Assembly: GCA_026929865.2 (NCBI GenBank)
Contig: CM049403.1
Span: 6,532,001-6,596,000, forward strand
Length of the DNA: 64,000 nucleotides
Origin: Hyperoplus lanceolatus
Lineage: Eukaryota; Chordata; Actinopteri; Uranoscopiformes; Ammodytidae
Direction: 5' to 3'
Shown: one piece after another, positions 11,256-62,300 of the stretch
Layout: each line of letters starts with the position of its first letter
Numbering within the stretch: position 1 is the stretch's first letter
The notes under the pieces: model-generated
Databases searched by the model: none
What the model was told of the DNA's origin: nothing
What the model saw: only the letters and a program-made list of their open reading frames with translations
Position numbers and translations under genes: made by a program

Positions 11256-14999
<3,744 letters not shown>

Positions 15000-25185: not shown

Positions 25186-27374
25186 CAGTAGCTGCTGACG
25201 TTTCCGTCCCGTTGAAAACAACTTCGTACACTCAGTCTATAAGAAAGTCAAAATACCTATATTGTAGTTAGACGAGGGGGGAAGCCTTAGAATGAAAAAA
25301 TTGTCTGGACAGCAGTGGGTGTCTTTTGAATTTGAAACTGGCAATGACATGAGATCCAATGGCAATGGTATGGCATGAAAACACTACTGAAAACCTAAGC
25401 AATCTGCTCTTGTGAAGAAGGTGAGCATATCCCATCTCTACTTATTTTGTCTTGAAAAACCCCCAACTCATTCAAATTCTTCTCATCTCATGTAGTCCAG
25501 TCTGGGTCTAGTGATGTTCACTCAACCACTAAGTGGTAACATAAGAACATCAATGTATTTATCATCTATTATTCTGGGCAGTGTGTAAAATATACTGAAT
25601 AACACCAAGATGTAGCTGACCTTAGAAGTAAACACATGTGTCTAACATCATGGTGTTGGTTCAATAAATCTGGACTGAACAAAGACTTTGCCTGACACAA
25701 TTATCCTGTTAGAGGTTTTGACCAAGCAACAGTCGGAATTTCTCTCAGTTTTGTTCTATTGCGTCAGTTTCAAAACCTCAAAACTGTCAATCATCAACTG
25801 CCAAAGCCTTGGCTTGAGCTGAAAATCAAATAAAACATGCAGCTGAAACAAATAACTACTGTATGTTCAGCAAATGCTTGCAATAAAGTTCCCGTTCAAA
25901 AATAATTATTATCAAATCAAATTATGTGAGGTTGAGACAAAACACAAATACACACGTCAGACAGTGAATGTTTTGGACATCAGCGTTTGAATTCGGTGCC
26001 AATCCCTTTTAAATCCCTCGCTCCCAAGCATCATTTACTGTAAAGCCTGCCAAAAATGTGTTTAATGATATGTGGTCCTTCAGATTGTGGAGCACTGGAA
26101 TGATCATAGTTTCAAGTGCAGTAAGGCTACGGCTGAGGCCACATTGAAATAAAGAAGTGAGGAGTTGATAGGATATGACATCTATCTACTTCTACGAAAA
26201 ACAAAGACAAAAAGGCTTTCATCTTTTCTATTAAAGAGGCTGTAGAACGGCTTCAACTTTTACATCTGTTGTTTGGTCGATGGGATGTGAATAATAGTTA
26301 CTTGACACATAAATCTAACTCCACAAAGTTGTGGTAATGCCCAGAAACATCTGTTGGAGATTGCTTTCACTCAGTTTTTATATGTATCAGTGTGCAAAAC
26401 GTTTAAAGCAAAGGTAGAGAGATGGATACTATATAGTACATTTTGAAATGTTAAAGTAACACTTAAATAGTTCAATTTAACACCATTTCCATGTGAATTG
26501 TGATCTCTTTCAACAGTGTTCAAATTTGAGAGTTAAATTAACTCTTAATAGAGTTGAAAAAACAAGATTCGGGTTGGTTTTAATTGGAGAAGGAGAGGAC
26601 AGGTCTTCATATTGAGTACTTTTTGCACCACTTCTTTTAAATACAGAAATGTTCACCAATACTTGGGGGATCTACTACCACTGTTATTGTAATAACTCAG
26701 AAAGAGCTCATGCACTTTGACACTGCATATTTCACACTGGGGAATTTACTGTGTACTTGGTGTCAAAATGTGAAACGATTTGATTGATGACTTTGACCTT
26801 TGACCTATTCATCAATAAACCCCCTCCCCCACTTCCGGCTGTTCCGGTATACACACAACCTATCCCTGTGTTCCAATACCCATACTTACCTACCATTTAG
26901 TATGCCAGAAAAAGATTTAGGATGTCCCAATACATGCACGTCAATTGTAGTATGCTGAAAATACATAAATGCCCCACTAACTCCAATAGCATTTTGGATT
27001 ATTTGCCTTTATTCTTGACATAACGAAAACAAATCTTCCTTACCTGATAGTTTTTCTCTCCTGTGGCCCTAAAACTCCTCTGTACTCTGTCAACTCATTT
27101 GTCAATGGCTTATGAAAAAGTTACGCCTCGTCCACAAGACGTACCCGATGATGCCCTTTATTATCAAGGCACCATGCAGTGTGAAAAAGACTAATGTCTA
27201 AAATGTTAGACAATGAGATGGTGAAAAAAGCCTCTGCACGTTGTTATAAATGTCAACAATAGGCCGTGTTTCAGCCCAAGATTTGACTGATAGACAAGCT
27301 GTGGAGCTTTGGAGATTTCAGAGGAGGGGTGGTGTGAGTGATCAGACAGAGATGAATTTTGAATTTTCACCAAT
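25186..27374. other. Intergenic region upstream of atg4b
   Basis: AT-rich unique-looking sequence with no recognised gene. At about 26870-27000 there is a repeat-like stretch beginning GTGTTCCAATACCCATACTT, which resembles fish short DNA transposons. Confidence 0.4.
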
Positions 27375-28180
27375 AGAATTGTATCATGTAACCTTCAGCT
27401 CTCATTGGATCGGTTTGCAGCCGAGTGTGAAGCGGTTGGGATGAGGATCAGTACCTCTAAATCTGAGGCCATGGTGCTCAGCAGGAAACCGATGGATTGT
27501 CTACTACAGGTAGGGAATGAGTCCTTACCCCAAGTGAAGGAGTTTAAGTACCTCGGGGTCTTGTTTGCGAGTGAGGGAACAATGGAGCGTGAGATTGGCC
27601 GTAGAATCGGAGCAGCAGGGGCGGTTTTGCACTCGCTTTACCGCACTGTTGTGACGAAAAGAGAGCTGAGTCGTAAGGCAAAGCTTTCGATCTACCGGGC
27701 GATCTTTGTTCCTACCCTCACCTATGGTCATGAAGGCTGGGTAATGACCGAAAGAACGAGATCGCGGGTACAAGCGGCCGAAATGGGCTTTCTCAGGAGA
27801 GTGGCTGGCGTCTCCCTTAGAGATAGGGTGAGAAGCTCAGTCATTCGTGAGGAACTCGGGGCAGAGCCGCTACTCCTTTGCGTTGAAAGGAGCCAGTTGA
27901 GGTGGTTCGGGCATCTGGTAAGGATGCCCCCAGGGCGCCTCCCTAGGGAGGTGTTCCAGGAGCGTCCAGCTGGAAGGAGGCCTCGGGGAAGACCCAGGAC
28001 TAGGTGGAGAGATTATATCTCCACACTGGCCTGGGAACGCCTCGGGATCCCCCAGTCAGAGCTGGTTGATGTGGCCCGGGAAAGAGAAGTTTGGGGTTCC
28101 CTGCTCAAGCTGCTGCCCCCGCGACCCGATTTCGGATAAGCGGTTGATGATGATGATGATGATGATGAGAATTGTATCAT
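27375..28180 (+). mobile_element. 5'-truncated RTE-type LINE with 13-bp target duplications
   Basis: Open frame from about 27405 to 28139 encodes 244 residues of the C-terminal part of a non-LTR reverse transcriptase. It includes STSKSEAMVLSRK, FKYLGVLF, RRIGAA, LTYGHEGWVMT and a basic tail WFGHLVRMPPGRLP...RPRTRWRDY. This is characteristic of RTE/Rex-like LINEs in fish. The stop is followed by a (GAT/ATG)n tail (28143-28167). The insert is flanked by identical 13-bp copies of AGAATTGTATCAT at 27375-27387 and 28168-28180, proving target-primed insertion with 5' truncation. The frame is uninterrupted, so the copy is fairly young, but it lacks the catalytic RT core and endonuclease and cannot be autonomous. 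Confidence 0.88.
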
Positions 28181-39700: not shown

Positions 39701-40277
39701 CACTAAATATAAACTGCAGTTCAGGTCCTGAAAACATACCAATGACACAACCTCTGTGTCCTCCATGGGAGCTGTGCCAAATAAATAAACTCCATCCATC
39801 ATTTATTTAGGCCTACCCGGCTGTGGGAATATTATAGGAAGGCTATTTCAAGATCTAAGCCTTTGAGCATTTTGACTTTTATGCACCTATTATTCTTCAT
39901 ATGTCCATCCATGGTTTTCAAATATTCTCTCTTTTATTGATCTTTCTTTTTCTTTATCTTATAAGCCTATTTACGTTGTAAAACACCTTGAATTTGCTAG
40001 GCTATAAGCTATATACCACTAAAAAAACTTGTCTGATGGGATTGATTGCCAATAATAACTTACCCAGCCATAGAAGAACCGTCGAGATCTCCCCCAGAGT
40101 CCCACCTGACGCAGCCAGCCCGTGCTCGGGCTTGGACCAGCCGATCCCGGATCGGTTGAGCCTGGAGTGGATGTAGTCCCTGCACAGCGCCTTGGCCTGA
40201 GACACCAGCTCCTTGTCGTTGGGCGAGCGGTCAAACACTTCAGACGCGAACACAGAGGAGCGACGCAACATCTCCAT
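30907..40277 (-). CDS. bok: Bcl-2-related ovarian killer BOK (4 exons, complete)
   Basis: Pro-apoptotic multi-domain BCL-2 family protein acting at ER/mitochondrial membranes. Coding exons 5' to 3' on the minus strand: 40277-40064, 36867-36739, 34951-34788, 31032-30907. They total 633 nt (210 aa; human 212). The N-terminus MEMLRRSSVFASEVFDRSP is diagnostic. The BH3-like helix (VSQAKALCRDYIHSRL) is followed by DELEYLRPNLYRNVARQL, the BH1 segment TWGKVVSLYAVAG, the BH2 segment RRGGW/VDVTKCV and a hydrophobic C-terminal anchor WLVGAVCAFGHYVKANVMYLL ending in REK. A frame upstream of this ATG has only GTG, so M at 40275-40277 is taken as the start. Intron 1 begins GTAAGT. Intron 2 begins GTAGAC followed directly by a CA microsatellite. 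Intron 3 holds a hAT-like element. Confidence 0.95.
31297..31522. repeat. GTGGAGTCAGCG inverted-repeat element, copy D (bok intron 3)
   Basis: Starts AAGGTGGAGTCAGCGGTTGT and ends AGAATCGCTGATCCCACCTT, an inverted pair. The middle shares TTTACAGAGCTTAGGCTGTGTAT and GTGAGGAGATA with copies in dtymk and farp2 introns. It has no coding capacity and is MITE-like. Confidence 0.6.
32317..33882. mobile_element. hAT-like non-autonomous element, 8-bp target duplications
   Basis: The element runs from CAGGGCCGCCCA at 32325 to TGGGCAGGCCTG ending at 33874. The reverse complement of the right end is CAGGCCTGCCCA, so the termini match at 10 of 12 positions. Flanks are CCTATAGG (32317-32324) and CCTATAGA (33875-33882), an 8-bp duplication with one change. 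CAGGG-type ends and 8-bp duplications are hAT hallmarks. About 1.55 kb, no transposase, inside bok intron 3. Confidence 0.6.
33944..34365. repeat. Interspersed repeat block in bok intron 3
   Basis: Begins TTAAAGGTCACCTATTATGC, a common fish repeat start. It continues into a segment with GGGGTTAAGTGTCTTGCTCA, AATGGAAGAGATGG and CAATCGAACCAGCGACC, which resembles fish LINE2-tail or tRNA-derived SINE sequence. Family names cannot be fixed without a library. Confidence 0.4.
35351..35459. repeat. GTGGAGTCAGCG inverted-repeat element, copy E (partial)
   Basis: Right half only: AGATCGTGAGGAGTTATTCACTG, TTTTGACAACAAGCGTTCT and GAGCTGACTCCAACCCT match the right halves of copies A, C and F. It lies in bok intron 2. 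Confidence 0.5.
36668..36734. repeat. GT/CA microsatellite at bok exon 2 donor
   Basis: About 33 GT units on the plus strand. In bok transcript sense this is a CA repeat starting at about intron position +5, immediately after GTAGAC. Confidence 0.9.
38309..39445. mobile_element. TIR transposon with GGGGTGATTTGTGCG ends (bok intron 1)
   Basis: The left end TATATAGGGGAAGGTGGGG and the right end CCCCACCTTCCCCTATATA are perfect inverted repeats, and the match extends through GTGATTTGTGC, about 29 bp. The core GGGGTGATTTGTGCG also recurs internally at about 38684-38698, inverted at 39217-39231, and at 39239-39253. A small frame (38992-39216) encodes an acidic serine-rich tail (YSSSEESDISIPLND...DDDGDFVIVTQ), possibly the C-terminus of a decayed transposase. 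A SINE-like segment with (GTAA)n lies at about 38715-38990. The superfamily is not assigned. Confidence 0.6.
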
Positions 40278-41957
40278 GCCCCTGTCAGGACTGTCATCCG
40301 CCGACGACTGTGCACGTCTCACCTCCCCGCCTGCAGAGCCTCACACAGCGGACACTTCTCCCCTACTTACCGCCCTCTGTGCTGGATAGAAAGACCGCTG
40401 GAGATTACTCTGCATAACACACACGCGGGATTAGTGTGTGGACATCTTTTGATAGACTGGATGAAAGCTGTCCGACGCAAACTCAGCGGAGGTCCAATGG
40501 AGCAGAGAGTTATATAAACCCCCAAGCTGGAGAGAGAGAAAAGCAACATTTGAAGGCGAGGAAACGTTTGGCACTAGAACAAAAACAAGGTTATAGACTA
40601 AAGAATCCTTGAAGTTACAGTGAGCGCGCCCATGCTCGTTTATAATGAAGATATAGGACTATTAAATGACACTTACCCGTGTTTAAGAACAGGCTGCTAC
40701 GCCCCCACTACAGTGTCATTCTTAAGCGGGCTGCATTGTAACTTGCCACTGAGCAGAAAAGTGGTTTTGATGGCTGACTTTTAGAAACTGAGGACTTTCT
40801 GCCACTCCAGGCGTAAAATATGCGCTCCAGTAAATTATCTGACAGGCTCTCCTTCTAAGGGCACTTATTGTGTGCGGTCCAAAGGCGGAGATAAGCGGGC
40901 CAACACAAGTCCCACCCCTTCCCTTTCAAACGCACATGCACTCACACGCGCACGGACATTTACTCACGCGCAAGACATTACCCATTATTATCTCAACATG
41001 ACTGAATTATTTAAAGGTGTGTCTGCATGATCAAATAAGCAACTCATAACTATTATATGCAATTATCTTCCAACCATGAGGAAACCCCAGGGAAGCCTTA
41101 ATGCCTAAATAAAGCATTTATCTTTGTCTAAATCCCCCTAAAGGTGTGAGAGGTGCTTAGGGCCTAATGTTCAAGCACAGGCAGGGAAGCACACATTAGA
41201 AAATTGTAAGAAGGTGGAAATCCTTCCTGCAGTGATCGTGGACTCCCAAAAACACTGAATAGCGCTACATTGATTTCATGATTAGTTTTTTATTCCACGA
41301 TCCGAGCTGATCACCGTAATGACATAACTGGGGAAAATAGCTTGCGTAGATAAAAAAATAATAATAGCCTAATAATATGTTTACTAAGTGCTATAGTGCT
41401 GGCTCTAACTTATATGTCTCTGTCTGATGAACTTACACAGGTGTTGGTCTCATGACGCAGTATTTCTACACAGTTACTATAGAGCAGGTAGAAAACCAGG
41501 AGAAAGCTCACAGTCACATGGTATCTATCTGCCCACTCATTATGTGGTATTTTTAAAAAGGTGGAAAGTCCTTTGTTATGCAATTCTCTATTCTATCTAT
41601 AAGTGGACGTCATTGTGTCTCTGGTTGCGTGGGTTTACCCCATGTTGTTCTGAAGGTAACAGAGCGTGACAGCAGACGTTGAGCATGACAACAGACAACC
41701 TGTCCACTCCCTACCACAGAAGTGTCTCAACACATTTTCATGGGAGATGACTGAGCAATATTGTGACTCCTGGGGAAGCCACCACACCCAGTGATCATGC
41801 CGTCGGGACATGTCTGAGGAATGCCCTGCTTTGTTTACTCAACACACTGGCAGATCCTTGTTCATACTGTCGACAAGAAAGGCCTACTCTCTGAAAGTGG
41901 AAACTTGATCAGTAAAATAAGGCTTAGTGACACTTCCTTTCTCGTCATTACATTCAC
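40278..41957. other. bok upstream region
   Basis: No gene recognised. The first 700 bases upstream of bok are moderately CpG-rich and would hold its promoter and 5' UTR; no clear TATA box was identified. The remainder is AT-rich and plain. Confidence 0.4.
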
Positions 41958-48100: not shown

Positions 48101-51100
48101 GGAGAGCACACCTCCCCTCTCACTACATACTGCAGCTACTGTATATAGAGTCACGTAATACTGAGGTCAACAGGAGCTCTTACGGTTGGAGTGATCGCCG
48201 AGGCCAGCGTCCAGGAAGATGCCTGGTTTCTCTTGGGACTTTTTGGACATGTTGATAGCGAGGTTGAGATCCTCAATCCACTTCCCCATCTCCATCTTAG
48301 AGCTGAGAACACAAACAGCACAGGACAACGTTGTACTTAATCACACATGCTGACAAGTTGTGTACATTTACAGAATAGATAGGGTAGGTAGAATAAGAGA
48401 TAACATAGTTAAAGTAATAACTGATTCTCTGTATACTACCCAGGGCAGTTTCACACTTGAAAGTCAGTTTCTAATCCACTTCTTTGGTTCACTCCAGATG
48501 TGAGAATGATACATCGTTTACATTTTCAACAGATAGCGTTTTTCACACCTATCGTTTCCTCTGGTCCGAATCAGTTGATGATTTGGTCAGATGTGTCTGG
48601 GGCAGCAACAATATAGTTCCCGAACTTCCTCATCCCGTAATGCATAGCGCAACTGGCTACGGGAGCTTGGAAATACTCACTGCTTCCCGAGTTCTTGATC
48701 ATGTACGATCACATTCTCACTATAAACAGGCCACACAAGTTGGATTGGAAGTGTACCGAGACCCCCTCTTCAACAAGGTTTCAGTACACTTGTTTGGTCC
48801 TCTTTTGGTTTACACCCGAATGCGATTGCTGTGCAAATTAACTGCAACAAACGCTACACGAATCAGACTTCGTTTCAAATCAAAACAAACACGGCAGGTG
48901 TGAAACCACCCTTGGAGTCACACTACTCCAACAGTTGAGGTCCAATAAAGAACTTTTCCTCTCACCTGGCAGCCACTACGATGGTCCTCTGAGCAGAGTA
49001 GATGGTGAAGCAGTGAGGCACTGACCATTCATTTTCACTTTCCTCAACCTGCCAACAAACAATAAGACAGGAACACAGGACACATCAGCATCAAATGTCA
49101 ACACATTTATTATCAACAATGAAGTATTGGAGCTTAGGAATGACGGGAGAGAGTCTGACTGAGGTCACAGGCAGACCTGCTGACATACTGGAGCATCTAT
49201 GTGCGTCTGTGAGGAAGTAAAGCACCATGACTGTCACCTCCTGGACACTGAGCCTGCTATCAGTAGAGCAAGTTTAAGACCCAAACACACCTACCACATC
49301 AACGTGTCCTGCTGCCGTTTTATTACTTCAGATGTCAGTCGTATATGTATCAGATGATATACTGTACATTAAAACCACAAGTAGCTGCGAGGAGTGACGT
49401 GATTCTGCATCATGAGAGATCTGCTAGGTGTGCTTTATTCAGGCCATTGGGTTTACACGTTGCATGGGGAAAATAAAAGGGGTAAGGTTTGGGCATTCGG
49501 AGCTGGCACAGCCCAGAGGGACTTACCGGAGCATCCAGCACTATGATCTGCAGCCAGGGAAACAGAGACATGCAGAGTTAGGAGAGCAGGGCCCCTCCCT
49601 TTCTTAACACACAGCCACACGGACCAACATCATACTGAATATTGAAATAGTCCAAACCACACCGTCTCACCCGCCGCAGGTAGGACCTACAGGGGGCTGT
49701 TAGCGGGATCTTTACAGAGGTTAACGAAGGGGGCAAAAGTTAAAAAAGAGATGAACTACAGCGTGTGTATACTCACTATCATGCCATGTAGGGGCAGCTG
49801 GCCGTGCACTTTGAACTGATTGGTGGCTGTGACACCTTTGCTTGTGTAGAGGAGCATGTCCGAGAACTGAGGAGACAACAAAACATTTATTGAAGTTATT
49901 TATAGGTCCCTCATAAGAACACGTATCTAATTTAGGCTTTAAAAAAAAAAAAAAAGGTGGAGTCAGCGATTCTAAAGTTTCTTGTCAAAATAACTTTGCC
50001 AAAAATGAGTGAATATCTCCTCATGATCTGCTACCTGTCCATACTGTATGTGCGTTAAAAACAAAAGTGATAATACACAGCGTAGGCTCTGTAAACAAAG
50101 TGGGCCAACAGTAGCTAGCAACATTTTGACACCAAATGTTCTCCAGAATCTCTGAATCCACCTTTAAATTACATTCTCAGTAGCAGGAGTAAATTTTTAC
50201 TCACCAGGAAAAACATTCTCTGCTGCAGTCCTTTCTTGGTAAGCTTGTAGAGACATCCCTCTCTTATGAACTCCTAAGAAACACAGTAAAAGGTTGTCAG
50301 ATGCTGCGTGTTGCTCCCCAGCGCCTCCTGTCCTCTGCTCCGTGTCACTGCACTCACCCTGCCTGGCCCCGTCAGGTTGTCTATGCCGATCAGGTCTCTC
50401 TGCAGCTCCGTCAGCTTCTGGAAGTTCTCCAGCCGGATCAGACTGCACTGGAGCTGAGTGGCTATGTCAGCCACCTCCTTCAGAGCCTCTGTACGGACAC
50501 AACAAAGGATGTGAAGCCAAAAAGAAAAAAACTTCTATCAGTATATTATAACCGTCTCAACAGAGCTACAGTTAAGAGTTTTCTGAAACACACTCTATCC
50601 ATTTGGGAGAGAAAAACATACCAAGACCAGGCAACATAATATCCATCTGATGATGGCCCAACTTTAACAACTTCTGTGACGTGTTCTGTGATATTCCTGC
50701 TCCTTTTCAGGCATATCAATTCAATATGTTATTTGTTTATTTTTGTTTATGCTTTTCATTTTGTTTTGTAAATTTTGATATGTCTGAAATAAATTGAATC
50801 AATCAATCAAATATTAACCAATCAGAGCACAGGAAACAATATAGGGTATGGTGTTTTATTTCATTCCAGTAACTTTTACTATAAAGCACTTCTAGGAGAA
50901 TTTTGCGTAAGAAAATTGACCTCATCAGTTATCATTGCTCATAAAGTAGAGGTTTGTGTGTGATGTACACAAGTGCCTTTCCTCGATACATCTTTATCAA
51001 GTACCACTCTGCAAATACAGAGGCTAGTTTTTCCCACTTAAAACTGAGCTACCGTCAATGAAAGGCTTGTATAGGAGTATGTGGAGCACTGACCCTTGCA

Positions 51101-54100
51101 GTCGTCGTGGTCGCGGTGGCTGGGGGAGTAATGCTTGCACAGTCTCTCCAGGATGAGCTTGTAGTGCATGAGGCGCTGGATGGGCTTGAGCAGGAACGTG
51201 TTGAGGGGCAGGTAGCACACCTTCTGCAGCTCAAACTCCTTGTATACCGTCTCCAGCTTCTTCAGCCTCTTGCTGGCCTTCTCCAGCTCCGTCAACACCT
51301 CGTCGTGTTTCTGGAGGTAGCTGGTGAATTCCTAAGGGGAAGAAGAAAAAATATACTGCATGAAAATATATTCTGCTCGTCGGTCATACATGTAAAAGGA
51401 AGAGTGATTTAAACCCCCTGTAGACCCAAGTCCACAAAAACCCTTCTGATTATGAAATTTGGGGAGGTTAGTTGCATGATAGTAAAGTTTAGTTTTAATT
51501 GAACCAATCACAGCAGTTCTCGAACGTTCTATGAAAACAATGACTGTTGCCATAGAGGGGGTTCGATACGGCCACGCCCATACAGTCCTGTCAAAACGGT
51601 CTCTTGACAGTAAAAAAGTTTTTTTTTTAAATATTTATGAACATTAATTTTAACTATTCTAGACCAGGTTTCCAGAGGCTTTAAGGGAGCTGGCAAAACA
51701 TTCTCACCTTAAGGGCACACATGTTCTTCAGCATCACATCACCGATCCTCTGGTAGTCTCCTTTGACGTGAGCGTTAGAGCGCCCCTCCCTGAGGAAACA
51801 CACACATTTTAAGATGTTGCCTTCATTACCATCTCAGAGTCTTCCACAAGTCTTATCACACAGAGGAACAGTGAAGCAGCACTAACCAGAGAGCCAGCCT
51901 CTGGTCCAGCTCTTTGAGGAAGCCTCGGTGGAACTCGTAGATGGGGTCGATGTTGGAGAAGAGCAGGGTCATCAGGCCTTCGGGCATGGCGTTTTCTTTG
52001 ATGACGGCGCTGCGAAACCACTGGGTGAAAGAAAGGAACAACTATTAGAGACTATTTTAACATATCCTCTTTATGAATAGACTTCTATGTCTACACTGTC
52101 AAAGGGGAAAATGATAAGTCAGGTTTTTGAGTTTGGAATCCAGCGTATCGCACCTTTCTTCACCAGAGGGCTGTAGAAAATAAAAACTCACCACAGTGAT
52201 GACCTCGAGGTCTTTCAGGTACGTTCGCTCTGTGGTCAGAATCTCTTTGGCAATGAAGTAGGCCTTGTCGGTGGGATATCGCTGATAGAGAGAGAAGAGG
52301 GACGTGCGTTTCAAAACTGAGAGAAAGACATCTTTCCAAACCATGGGAAAATTCAAAATTCAACAATACACAATTTCAAAAGTAAACATACTTTCCCTAA
52401 ATCATACGAACAAAAAGATTGAACACGCCAGGCCATTATAAATAAAAGGAAGATGAAGTCTGTGGGTTCTGTGATTTCTAATGGTGTACCTTCCTCCTGC
52501 CCTCATCATCCTCCTCTAGCTTGGCATTGCTGCCCACCTCACACAGGCTGGGGCTTTGCAGGGGCGACGGGGCCGGTCCCGGCCCTGGCAGGCTCAGGGT
52601 GGACATCTGGAAGGAGGGGGACAGGCAGAGCGGACCTTTGGAGTTACAGGGCGAGAGCTGAGGACTGTCCATGACCGAGTCTGAGGAAGAGGGAAAAAAA
52701 ATAAAATTTAAAAATGGCATAAAACAAGTCTAGTCAAAGAAAAAACTATAAATAACATTGTTGTAGTTAAAGGTCACATATATGTTGCTCATTTTCAAGT
52801 TCCAAATTGTAATTTATTTATTTATTTTTTAAATGGTATAAAACAAAACCCTTTATATTTCTCAGTGGCTAAATCCCCTATTTTGAGCCTCTGGATGAAA
52901 CGCTCTGTCTGTAAGCCCTGCCTTCCAAAAATCCCAGTCTGCTTCAATAGGACCAGAATCTTAGCCCATATCAGATAGAACGATTTGATTGGCAACTCCG
53001 AATTCCAGAACAACAGGCCGAGCAAATTTTAATTTGTCATGTTAGTGATAAAAGGTTAAAGGACTCAAACAGGACATACACTCCTCCGAAACAGGTGGAG
53101 TTTAAGTCAACAATCAAGCTCTCGACAACAAGTGGAACTGCACACTAAAGCACATTTGCAACTCTGCTATAACGTGTTGCATACAGTCAAACTCATAGCA
53201 GTTAGCTTCAACTTAACCTAACCTGTTTATCCACAATTATCTCATTTCCTCAGAGGAAAAAAAACCTGACCGCCGCCTTAGTGCTGCACATTCTAACAAA
53301 AACAAGGGGAACGGTTGATCACACACATAGGCCGCAAATGAAAGGGGAGACGGCAGAGTAGACCCAAGAAAAGAAATGGTTCCCACATTCCCTCTCTCTC
53401 TGCCCCCCTCCCCGCAATTGTTTTCAGAGGACAAATGATTAATTGCCAACATATACAAGCCCCAGTTCCATTTCGGAGAACTGGCTGCTTCTTGCTTTTT
53501 TTGTTTTGATCTTTTTAACTGCATGGCAAAACGAGGAGACAACACATGCAGATGAAACACTGCTAGGCCATCCTCTTTCTGTGAGTCACAGGTCACCACA
53601 GCTGTTCTTCCACTTCTAATAGTGGGAAGAAGAAGAAGAAAAAAAAAAGGAGTGGGGGAAGACAGAGAAAAAAAGGAAAAGAAAGTCACTATTCGACCCG
53701 GAAATAATTGCTCAGGCAAAGACTTATTAGGAATGTGGCGTGCCTAGAGGGAAAATAGTTGTTTATGGTTTATCTCTAAAGAAGGGCCACACAGGGAATG
53801 AAAGAAACGAGAAGGAAAGAGAGTGGACGACAGGCTCTGAAAGAAAGAGGTTTTTTTATGCTGTGGAATGGCTTGGCACAAAGCCTGTCCAAACAGGGAG
53901 AGCACACACACACACACACACTCAGCTTGAATTAGGGTTAAGGAATCTTGTTTACAAGTCCGACCCAACCCCCCAAAAGCATACCAGTTTAATGCCTCAA
54001 TAATAAAAGTGTGTGTGTGTGTGTGCTTACTGGTTGCATGTGCTTCTTTTTCTAATGGCGTTACACTGAAGAGCACTCCATACTAATAGGATGATTCACT

Positions 54101-56286: not shown

Positions 56287-56358
<72 letters not shown>

Positions 56359-59300
56359 GTATCTTGTAAATTAGGATATTGCATTGCTTAAGCTTGCTTA
56401 TTGGTCAAGTTATAGTTAAAATAAGTCCTAAAAAATATATTTCCTCTAATTAATTTCCTTAAATTAAAACTACAAAGCGATCATATTGGAAGGTAAAATG
56501 CATAACAGTTTTTCTGACATCCTGAGTCAAATTAATAATGCATTTGGTAATGTCAGGCAAATCTAACATAATAGTCCTATGTTAATGTGTAAATTAGTGT
56601 CTAAATGATTTGAAGCATTTATTAAATAGATACACAGCTTCCATAGTACAAAATGTTTTGCATTTGAGGGATTAACCTCAGATTGCATAATGAAAATCTT
56701 CGCTAAATAGCCTAATGCTGTAGGTAAGATCTCATGAAAATGAAGGCAAAAACCTGATTGACCAAGTTTCATTTGAAGAAAGCACCAGCACAGTGTAACA
56801 ATGGCAGCGGCCCACAACAGGGACACCAGGTGGTCAAATCACTGATGCAAACAAATCATGGTGCTGCTTTAGAAAGGCAACATACGGAACAGGTAGATGT
56901 GTTCCTCCTCTTCTCAGTAGAGGAGAATGAAAACGTGTGACGGTTAAGTAGTGTACACTACAAAGATGAGCATCAACACGAGGAGAGTGCAGACTGTTAA
57001 TTAACTCCAATTACAAACAAAGAGCCAGACACCAGCAGAAAATGTGTCAGCTTTAGGCAGAGAAGCCATCTTTGTTATGATCAGTATTGGGATCAAAATG
57101 TTGTGAAAATAAAGTGAAATCTTACTGTTAAAAGAGTGAACCATACTATTGCTGCTTAATATCACTATACATTACGTCACAAAAGTGTTTCCTTAAATCG
57201 TTTGGAAAGGCCAGGACTTAAGATGTGCTCTTTACATTCAAATGTGAGGGGATCCAGAGGGGTCTGCCAGTGCCAGAGCCTGCAGGTTATGGCACTGCAG
57301 GAGGAAGCCCTCTATCCCACCGCTCCCCGTCAGAGGGTTACTGTAAAACAGGTTCTGCTCCGGGGGCAGCACGCTGTCAGAGCCCCAGTCAGAGTCTGAG
57401 TCTGAGCTGCCGTTCCCTGAGCCCTCTGTGGCTGTGGGCGGGTAGCTGAGCTGCTCCAGCTGCTCCACCAGGTCAGTGAACTGCACAGCAGAGCTGCTCT
57501 CAGAGCGCACAGAGTAGGCAGGGAAGTTAACCATGGAGCTGGCCTCTGACTGGACATCAGAGCCTGGCAGGCGCAGAGAGGACGAGTCAGGGCAACCGTA
57601 ACCCGACATGCACTCACCTGCAGAGCTCAGCCCCAGGTTGTCCAGGGAGCTGCACTCAGACCGGTTATTAACCAAAGAGCTGGTTTCAGAATGACCAACA
57701 ATGCTATTAGGGAAGGAATTTGGATTCTCGTTCAGGTCCTCAATGCCCACACTAAAGATACGGTGTTTGCCGAGGTCAGATTCCTCCAGATAATCAAAGT
57801 GATCTACTTTATCATTGAGGCCAAAAGAGAAGGCCTCGGCCCCCCCGCCATAGAAGGAAATCTGTGTGGGATCGTCATCTATGAACTCCTCTGAGACGTG
57901 AAGCGGTGCGGTGGACATTGAGAACATGGGATTCTGTTTTGTACGTAGAAGCTCTGCCTCAAAGGCCTCTGGTGTGAGAACGCCCTTCCTCTTCCCTCCA
58001 CCCCTTCCCACAGAGCAACCTGTTCCCCTCCTCCCACCATAATCATTATCCTCATTGCCATTTTTGGACAGCAGAGATTGGGACGTGCCACTCTCTACAC
58101 ACATAAACATGGGGCTGCAGTGATTGCTGGGGGCACCTTGAAATGCGAAGTGGGACGGGGAAGCGGCCTTGACAGGTTCTTCCATCGGAGGGCTGGGGGG
58201 TCTGGCTGCTTGCAGCGGGGACTGAAGCTGCTGCTGAGGAGAGGCTGGAGGCTGGCTCAGTGAGGCCAAAGGCTGGGGCTGAGACTGGAGCTCCGTTCTT
58301 GAGAGAATGCTAGAGATGTGTGCTGGGTGGAAGGACACGCTAGAAGGGGAGCCTTGGGTCCTGAGACTCTCATTGAATGACAAGCTCTGAAACAATTTAA
58401 GATAGATAGGACAGGGAGACAAGAGGGAGGGAGGGAGGGAGAAGAGAGCAGAAAGTAACAAACAAAGAGGAAAATATTAATAGTTTATTAAGCATTGTAC
58501 AATGTTTGATTTGTTGCATGAATGCATTAACTTTGCAGCACCACTGACCTGTTTTGGCACATCTGTTGCTAGGGAGCGAGCAGACATTCGTATTTTACTG
58601 TTCCTCCTGTTCAAGAAACAATTGTTATTGCAGAATTGTTATCATGCATGCAGTGAGGAAATATTTCTTAGTCAATACTAACAAGTAGGCTGGGCAATTC
58701 ATCCAAAATGAACCAAAGCCAATATTAAGAGCCAATATTGATGACTTATATAGAGTGCACGCTTCATAACACAGGTCTCTCAGTCCCTCAACCTGATATT
58801 CAATCAGAGGAGAGAATGCTACAAACGGGTAAGTCGCTCTGCCGGTGCATGTGCAATGAGCGACAGATGGGTGAATGTTTTTTAGCAGGTAAAAATCCTT
58901 CCCAATGTCTGTTTTGATGGTTTTTAATCATGTTTTATCGCTATTACGGATCTGAGGGAGGGGACTGCTAACTGCGGTCACTGACAGGAAGTTAGCTAAA
59001 AGTAACATTTTGCTTACTGAACAAGAAATAGTGTGTTTTCTTAATTTTTTTTAAACCCAAAAGATTTCTGAAGGCCCCGATTCATTTGAAAAACATTAAA
59101 AAAAAAAAGAATCAAGGTAAAACGTTACATTTTTCGTACTATTAATTTGAGGTCATATCACCCAGACCTATAAGAGGATGAGTAACTTGTCTTTCAAATA
59201 AACAGTGTACTATATATGAAAGCACACAGACCTCTGGTATGGGGTTCTCTTTGCTCCATTTTCCCTGGCATACTCCACAAGCTGCTTCTGGGTCCTTCCA

Positions 59301-62300
59301 CTGACACAAAGAGTTTGGAATTAAAACACTGAATAATGAAAAGACTGAAACACTTGTTTTGTTTCATTGTATAAGAAAAGTCTTGGTTCCTATAGAGGAA
59401 CAATACATATGACAGATGCCCTGGTTTGTAATAATAAATACCTGTATCTAAAGGAAGAGCCTCTGGTGAACAGGATAGCTTTGGATTTGGGTTGGGGTTG
59501 GTCAAACAAACGGAAGAACGCGTGGTATTCCACACAGATCTTCCAAAAGATTTTACACTGGTCTCGGCTGGCCATCATAAACTCCAGCGTGTCCTGATGG
59601 GGGCCCTGAAAACAAACAGAGAAAAACCGTGGAATCAGACTGACGTTGGTCACCTTCACAGTGGATGTGGATTTATTTGAAGACGTAGAACTTTGGAATT
59701 TCCTGTATAAAAACATATATAACTTCAATGATACATACATGAACTTCTGGGTGGAGCTTGATGAGGAACCGTTTTCTCTTGAAGCTCAGTTTCCGAATCT
59801 TGGACCAATTGAAGGTGTTTATTTTTGTGTTGCCCTGGGAGCAGAAGGAGTAAAAGGAATGTTGAAAGGAAGAAAGGGCCTAAGGCAACATCGTTAGGGA
59901 CAGAGGGTCGCATCTACAAAAGACAACTAGTATGAGAGAAGCAGTCACCTGAAAAACCTGGAGGCCCATGTGAGAAATAGCCAGGTTGATTTTGGTGCCT
60001 TCGCGGTCGGCAGCTGGGTGGAAGCGCACGCCGTACATCTCCAGCTTACGGGCGATCTCCAGGATTTGGAAATCTGATTCAGCCGGAGTCTGGCCCCTGA
60101 AGGAGACAATAAAAATAATGCATCAACACATGGGGGTTACATTGGTTGTTTTCTGTAGTTAAAAAAGGAACATTCACAATTCACAACCTGTTTATTAAAA
60201 TACCCTTTATGATTTTGCAGGCAAACCACTAAAAACTCCAGTATATTGAAAGATTTTGGTTTGATTTTGTTTCTTCCATTTATATAATTCCAGAAATGCA
60301 GTTAAACAATTGTGTTCCTCAAATATATATGGATAATAAATCACCATTAAAGTATAGCCTGGTGTGTTCTACAAGCTTTCCTTTTAGATTTACTGCTTGA
60401 AATTTAAACAATCGTATCATGACTGGTTTGCAGGGTAGTGTGTCCTTAAATCCCTTACAACTTTGAGGATTTCTGAGGCGTTATCTACAACCATGTGATT
60501 ACAACCAAACAGCATGTTTGGAAGACATATCCATCCAATCATCACCACCACCACATTCTAATTTTGTTCATCCGTTAATCGGGGAGATCTCCTTAGGCCC
60601 CTCCCCTGCCCCACTGGCCTTCTGGCTAATAGACCGGCCAGAGCAGAGCAGGGGATTAGGCCAGGGAACTTGCCGCTTCTGCTTCCACACTGGCAACCAG
60701 AGGACGAGATTAGCAGAGGTCTTTAGAGGCGCCTAATGCTCCCAGTTGAAAGGAGCCCCTATTGGCCACAGGATAGTACTGTGCTAACAAAGAGGCTGCT
60801 GGTGGAAAAAGGGCAGTTTTTTTTGTGAGACTTTGGACTTTAAAAGGGGGCAAACACTCTCATTGTGGTTGTTTAACAAGAAAACACAGTGGTCTCAGTT
60901 AAATTACCTTATCATAGTTAACACTAAACATTTGTGTTCTGAGCCAAATAAAAAGGGGCAAAGACAGTGAGCCACTGTTTACAAATAACAAATTGGGACT
61001 CATGATACCCTCCATGAGATAAGAATTACAGACGGTCTAAAAGGCTGGCAGCAGCAATTTGTAAGACTCAATTTGAGGTATGTTCCACAGTCAAACTTCA
61101 AACTTTTCTTGCATAAACCTAAAAGTGAAAACAACATATTCCCCCTCAGTGAGTTTATGTCAACTCAACATTCCAAGGAGGTGAGCCTGCAAATTATTCT
61201 CCATTCCTTACACCAGCTAGTGTTGCATCCACTTTTACTACTAATACAGTTGCTATTTGTGCAACATTGTGTACATAGAAAAAATAATATTAATGTAAAT
61301 GTATGCATATAATGTTTTAGTTTTACATTGGATTTTGCTATATCAAATCTGTTAAAGAGTTTTAAAGAAAACCATGAAGAAAACAAAGAGCTGTGCAGAA
61401 GGGAGTTGAGTCAGCAGCTGTGACAGAACAATGCGCTGTCCGCCTGGCACTCAGCTGCTCTGTCTTGTGGTAGGTAGGAATGCAACAATAACTGTGGACT
61501 GGATGGCATTTGCATAAGCGTTTGAAGCAGCTGGAAGAGGTGGGGACTGTTACTGAGGTCACGGAGAGACAACGATAACCCGTGGCTCAAATTAACCCTG
61601 GTTTGCATCCCGACCTCATGCTCTTTTAAATGCAGGGTTTTAAGAGTGTAATGAAAGACATGACACAGCTTAAGCTCAGCTGGAAACAAGGTGTGGGACA
61701 GGTCAGCAGCAGTCACTCACAGGTGTCTGCGGTGGAGCTCCATGATCCTCTCCTGAACCTTCTCTTGGTAAGGCAACATCTTGTTGGCCCTTAGAAAGTC
61801 CCCGTCTGCTACGGCATCATAGTCACCAATCTCCGCTGAGGTTTAAAGAAGAACAAGAAATGTTTTATTTTTATTTTTTTTCACAGAAGCATAGCTCTCT
61901 ATAAAGCCATGATTTATTTTGAGTTGATAGGGGTCTAGGTCAATACAAATGACTTATAATAAAAGAACAGAACAGATCAAAACATACACTGGACCAGATG
62001 AGAAGCCAACAGGGCTCCGGTATTTTCCGTGCAGATCAACCTGCCCTCCATCAGATCTCTCTTCATCTGCAGCGAGAATAAATACCTACAAGAAAAACAC
62101 AAAGGCACAGAGTCCATCTATATTAATGAAAAGTACATACCGGTAACACAGCCATTTTATGTATCTTAATCCAAGTGCAATGTCATGCAACAGTCCTTAA
62201 CAAAATCACTCCTCAAATTTTAATAATAAAAAAACATGTCATTTCTTTATTTGTTTTTATTAACAACCTTTCAATTGGAATCTTAGTTGATAATGTTTTA

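Follow-up and report, generated by a model that had tools for sequence, protein, structure and literature searches.

The farp2 gene of Hyperoplus lanceolatus contains a putative composite terminal exon predicting a FERM-FA short form, in an exon plan shared with farp1 and frmd7

The window analysed here is a stretch of 64,000 nucleotides from the fish Hyperoplus lanceolatus (assembly GCA_026929865.2, contig CM049403.1, positions 6,532,001 to 6,596,000; contig C9 in the 807 Mb of genome that were searched). It contains the farp2 gene, in which one exon (58386 to 57238) may serve either as an internal or as the last exon. This exon lies on the minus strand, which the original prediction had not given, and so do the features of the gene described below. 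Upstream of it, matches to FERM_M and FERM_C exceed the Pfam cut-offs; the exon of FERM_C (the F3 part of FERM, 59442..59605) is additionally recognized by its identity to exons at other loci. The FERM-adjacent (FA) exon (59232..59300) ends in phase 2, and its Pfam match of 26.3 bits is below the curated cut-off of 30.6 bits. It is followed by a small exon (58549..58606) that ends in phase 0; splice sites of both were placed by eye. RhoGEF matches, corresponding to DH exons, are found downstream (51095..52254). In three of three frames of the DH-PH-PH part, the FARP2 structure 4gzu outscored the FARP1 structure 4h6y; since FARP2 was ahead each time, the gene is identified as farp2.

The exon is entered in phase 0 at 58386. 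Its first 769 nt (57618..58386) belong to the long form, which bears the guanine nucleotide exchange factor (GEF) part and leaves the exon at a CAG/GTGAGT donor (57612..57620). The cut falls between 57618 and 57617 in phase 1, splitting a Gly codon, and the next long-form coding exon (52680-52490), directly upstream of the RhoGEF domain, begins in phase 1, so that the long form is in frame. With an approximate weight matrix, this donor reaches 8.5 bits, the strongest among all donors scored, and no second donor above the cut-off of 2.5 bits occurs in the exon. If the donor is bypassed, the frame stays open until a stop at 57240-57238, yielding a tail (57617 to 57238) of the split Gly and 125 whole codons, 126 together. 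The exon boundaries, the near-perfect donor, the in-frame junction to the RhoGEF part and the 126 additional codons had all been claimed in the original prediction, and all of them hold. A donor within the exon, a frame that reaches a stop and no other good donor are the properties of a composite terminal exon, where the 5' splice site competes with a poly(A) site in the next intron.

Codon use of the tail was scored with a table built from other exons of these genes, 1807 codons in all; of the 47 training pieces, 3 contained stops and were dropped. The tail scores 0.563 bits per codon in frame, the other two frames of this strand giving 0.044 and -0.413. Among 479 overlapping intron windows the highest value was -0.228 (the non-coding side of the table was trained on the same introns), and in a composition-matched version none of 5000 simulations reached the score of the tail either. 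GC content at third codon positions is 0.71, and overall GC content drops from 0.61 to 0.33 over the kilobase beyond the short-form stop. Reading on beyond 51 other donors of these four genes, which were chosen automatically and are hence approximate (one of 52 exons was dropped), the frame stays open for a median of 11 and a maximum of 104 codons. A frame as long as that of the tail arises in 0.045% of simulations with intron composition and in 1.7% with the composition of the tail itself, so its length alone is not decisive. The encoded tail is rich in serine and acidic residues and probably disordered.

Genome search with FERM exons revealed three close paralogs and a distant fourth locus, the identity to the farp2 FERM_C exon being 80, 83 and 62% in the former and 46% in the latter. 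Two of the paralogs, on C11 (14.72 Mb) and C24 (6.70 Mb), are farp1-like and possess DH and PH exons. The third, on C23 (3.31 Mb), is the one with 62% identity; no RhoGEF match was detected near it in the part of the interval that was read, which makes this a lower bound. Among the matches listed, the C23 gene has a GCKIII-like kinase some 15 kb away from its last exon. Another lies roughly 100 kb past the final exon matched in the C11 gene, and the one on C24 is 1.7 Mb distant from farp1. This agrees with the human neighbour pairs FARP1-STK24 and FRMD7-STK26. Because its FERM exon is close to those of FARPs, no GEF follows and an STK26-type kinase is its neighbour, the C23 locus is taken as frmd7.

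All four genes display the same plan: the FA exon is succeeded by a small exon, which ends in phase 0 and whose splice sites were placed by eye, and then by a large exon open to a stop. The open length of the large exon is 382 residues in farp2, 406 in C11 farp1 (L009:1015-2235, plus strand), 529 in C24 farp1 (L012:7199-8788, minus strand) and 403 in frmd7 (L015:2074-3285, plus strand). Nothing was found after the large exon of frmd7 on C23, and it is taken as the last one. In human FRMD7, exon 12 is the last and starts in phase 0, c.1050+1 lying in intron 11 (PMC3163398) and c.1492 corresponding to exon 12 +442 (PMC10811807). In each of the three GEF genes, the exon preceding DH begins in phase 1. 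Candidate phase-1 donors of the two farp1 copies split a Gly codon at nearly the same aligned place, and the frames beyond them stay open for 272 (C11) and 363 (C24) codons. Unlike composite terminal exons in general, the FARP ending seems to be kept at several paralogs.

Similarity of the tails themselves is unequal. The farp2 and C24 farp1 tails both have an acidic/serine block with an NP block after it, and their alignment beats shuffled sequences (p 0.004 without correction, for one of six pairs; with local composition kept, 8 of 500 shuffles reached it). Both farp1 copies and frmd7 share an SLQL block, and the similarity between the last 80 residues of frmd7 and C11 farp1 was reached by 0 of 500 stricter shuffles. 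The two farp1 tails are related and look selected. As for the extreme ends, both farp1 read-through proteins terminate in VFSC and frmd7 in EVTL; these are hydrophobic and might, at a guess, be PDZ ligands. CASK, mentioned below, has a PDZ domain.

The original prediction had inferred translation on both sides of the donor from S-E-x-S-S motifs straddling it. All four copies are present, two per side (SETSSLVN and SECSSLDN before the donor, SEASSMVN and SESSSAVQ after it), and residue shuffles reach four copies in a fraction of 2e-5, for a motif chosen after it had been seen. The repeat is absent from both farp1 tails and is therefore not the feature common to the relatives; although real, it is the weaker evidence. 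Translation of both sides is nevertheless likely and well supported, owing to codon use, the exon plan shared with two farp1 copies and frmd7, and the related, selected-looking farp1 tails.

In the intron that follows, a candidate polyadenylation signal AATAAA (56623-56618) occurs 614 bases past the short-form stop. Two TGTA motifs are located upstream of it, and no clear GT-rich element was found downstream. The same intron carries a perfect run of 24 ATA triplets (56287-56358), about 900 bases past the stop.

We consider it probable that farp2 has a composite terminal exon at 58386-57238, which gives rise to a scaffold-type short form, in an arrangement ancestral to farp1, farp2 and frmd7. 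When the donor at 57618/57617 is used, the exon would be internal and the full FERM-FA-RhoGEF-PH-PH protein would be made. When splicing skips it, and cleavage and polyadenylation take place in the next intron, the exon would become the last one, resulting in a FERM-FA protein with a 126-residue tail and no GEF part. A stop codon in the last exon lets a transcript escape nonsense-mediated decay, and the short-form transcript should accordingly be spared. The composite arrangement would predate the split of farp1, farp2 and frmd7; it would survive in the two farp1 copies, and frmd7 would retain the short ending only. With the FERM-only ending, these genes may thus have inherited an ancient means of switching between a signalling enzyme and a mere scaffold.

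The closest known system is C. elegans frm-3, the FARP1/2 ortholog. It has three isoforms, two of them with FERM (PMC9632837); FERM-FA is shared by GEF-less FRM-3A and GEF-bearing FRM-3B, and the long form arises when a splice site within the terminal exon of the short form is used (PMC7260190, PMC9632837). The same anatomy is present in farp2, where FERM-FA is followed by a donor in a possibly terminal exon and then by GEF, and the farp2 exon would add a fish case to the known composite exons of this type. In contrast to the nematode, where isoforms and function have been studied, the fish gene is known from sequence, and the likeness concerns anatomy. In the accessible parts of the open-licence literature, the only hint of a vertebrate FARP short form is a retained intron of Farp1 in mouse brain that may give an 800-residue isoform (Li et al. 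2021 via PMC12294458, PMC10121712). This is a lead only, as the source review contradicts itself on the chromosome of the gene. A shorter isoform of human FARP2 is recorded in UniProt.

Several observations weigh against the proposed arrangement. The farp2 tail alone finds only itself and a chance-level place (E 0.4) in the genome, with no relatives, and the whole composite exon finds only itself. The similarity of the tail to that of C11 farp1 (p 0.24) and to frmd7 (p 0.76) does not exceed that of shuffles, and 23 of 2000 shuffles equal or exceed its score against a farp1 profile. The putative link between the farp2 and frmd7 tails relies on place and phase of the exon. Whole tails of frmd7 and farp1 are not significantly similar under the stricter shuffle control, and for the last 80 residues the link to C24 is weakened (21 of 500). 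The farp1 donors were selected for mutual alignment among phase-1 candidates above 2.5 bits, of which C11 has two and C24 four. Their scores of 3.3 and 4.1 bits, respectively, are low, although many other donors of these genes score no higher; C24 has a rival phase-1 donor of 4.5 bits about 70 bases before the stop. It is therefore uncertain how much of the farp1 tail is specific to the short form. Further, AATAAA hexamers are common in the AT-rich farp2 intron. To judge by the great strength of the farp2 donor, the long form would be the default in this gene, and the predicted short form may be regulated or rare.

As regards function, the original prediction had proposed that the short protein could act as a natural antagonist. 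It would then compete with full FARP2 for plexin/neuropilin or lipids and lower Rac/Cdc42 activation, as could be expected of a protein that retains FERM-FA without DH-PH-PH; FARP1 is targeted to the membrane by its FERM domain, which binds phospholipids (PMC6041286). We regard this as unlikely to be its chief role. In C. elegans, FRM-3A and FRM-3B both rescue clustering of GABA-A receptors and FERM-FA suffices (PMC7260190), which leaves the antagonist unsupported and points to a scaffold that works independently of GEF. Full-length FRMD7, which naturally lacks a GEF part, is reported to bind RhoGDI-alpha and to activate Rac1, not to block it (PMC3742540). CASK appears as a partner in both cases: LIN-2/CASK pulls down the FERM-FA part of FRM-3 (PMC7260190), and interaction of FRMD7 with CASK has been reported (PMC7958879, PMC10811807). 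Because FRM-3A acts as a scaffold, FRMD7 seems to do so and CASK is common to both, the farp2 short protein would most likely be a membrane- and receptor-bound scaffold from which GEF is left out rather than opposed.

A still less probable explanation is that the farp2 tail is not translated any more: it would be a fossil of former coding sequence, or a by-product of a GC-rich stretch in which the frame happens to be open. The great strength of the donor, the weak or chance-level similarity to relatives and the 1.7% obtained with composition-matched sequences would all suit it. On the contrary, in-frame codon use, 126 codons without a stop or frameshift, an exon at the same place that is open to a stop in three relatives, and the short open frames past the 51 other donors argue for coding. 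That the tail is instead coding as part of the long form, where splicing at an additional donor close to the stop would produce a longer linker and no short protein, is very improbable: the C24 farp1 candidate of 4.5 bits is in its favour, but the farp2 exon has no such donor, the last residues and stop of the farp1 copies are alike past every candidate above 2.5 bits, and frmd7 ends in the large exon.

Returning to the composite exon, a wider reading concerns FRMD7, the gene of idiopathic infantile nystagmus. Like the farp2 short form, it encodes FERM-FA followed by one large phase-0 terminal exon, with no GEF domain found, and it has a GCKIII kinase neighbour as does C11 farp1; it differs in being a separate gene with the short ending only and with chance-level similarity to the farp2 tail. 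We lean, with limited confidence, towards FRMD7 being a FARP gene minus its GEF half, in which the ancestral short form became the whole protein and whose C-terminus is homologous to the FARP1/FARP2 read-through tails. Vertebrate FARPs would then make both FRMD7-like scaffolds and GEFs, as worm frm-3 does. That the FRMD7 C-terminus has relatives in farp1 tails is the bolder part; the published description is that it has no significant homology to other proteins (PMC3163398). No derivation of FRMD7 from a FARP short form was found in the accessible parts of the open-licence literature. Of 140 reviewed FRMD7 mutations, 25 fall in exon 12 (PMC10811807). Caution in the weight given to this exon is called for by PMC7958879, according to which disease results there from truncations alone and the exon may be less important than FERM and FA.

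Surroundings of farp2 were also inspected. An STK25-type neighbour was not found, the sole C9 kinase among the 25 matches listed being a 53% match 2.6 Mb away; the query was a typed piece, and 150 of 420 candidates were scored, with at least 25 matches. STK25 adjoins FARP2 in human, which would be a supporting, not a defining, criterion. A fourth GCKIII-like gene among these matches sits on C12, not near farp2. Open frames at 40005-40340 (minus strand) and 12197-14843 (plus strand) look like bok and agxt, respectively, both of which are located near FARP2 in human. A further open frame of 258 residues (27363-28136, plus strand) resembles the end of a non-LTR retrotransposon reverse transcriptase.

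If the proposed arrangement is true, the choice between activating Rho and serving as a mere scaffold would be built into one gene family and would have been carried along from worms to vertebrates. FARP knockouts that hit the GEF exons would presumably spare the short forms, and FRMD7 would gain an origin and relatives for comparison.
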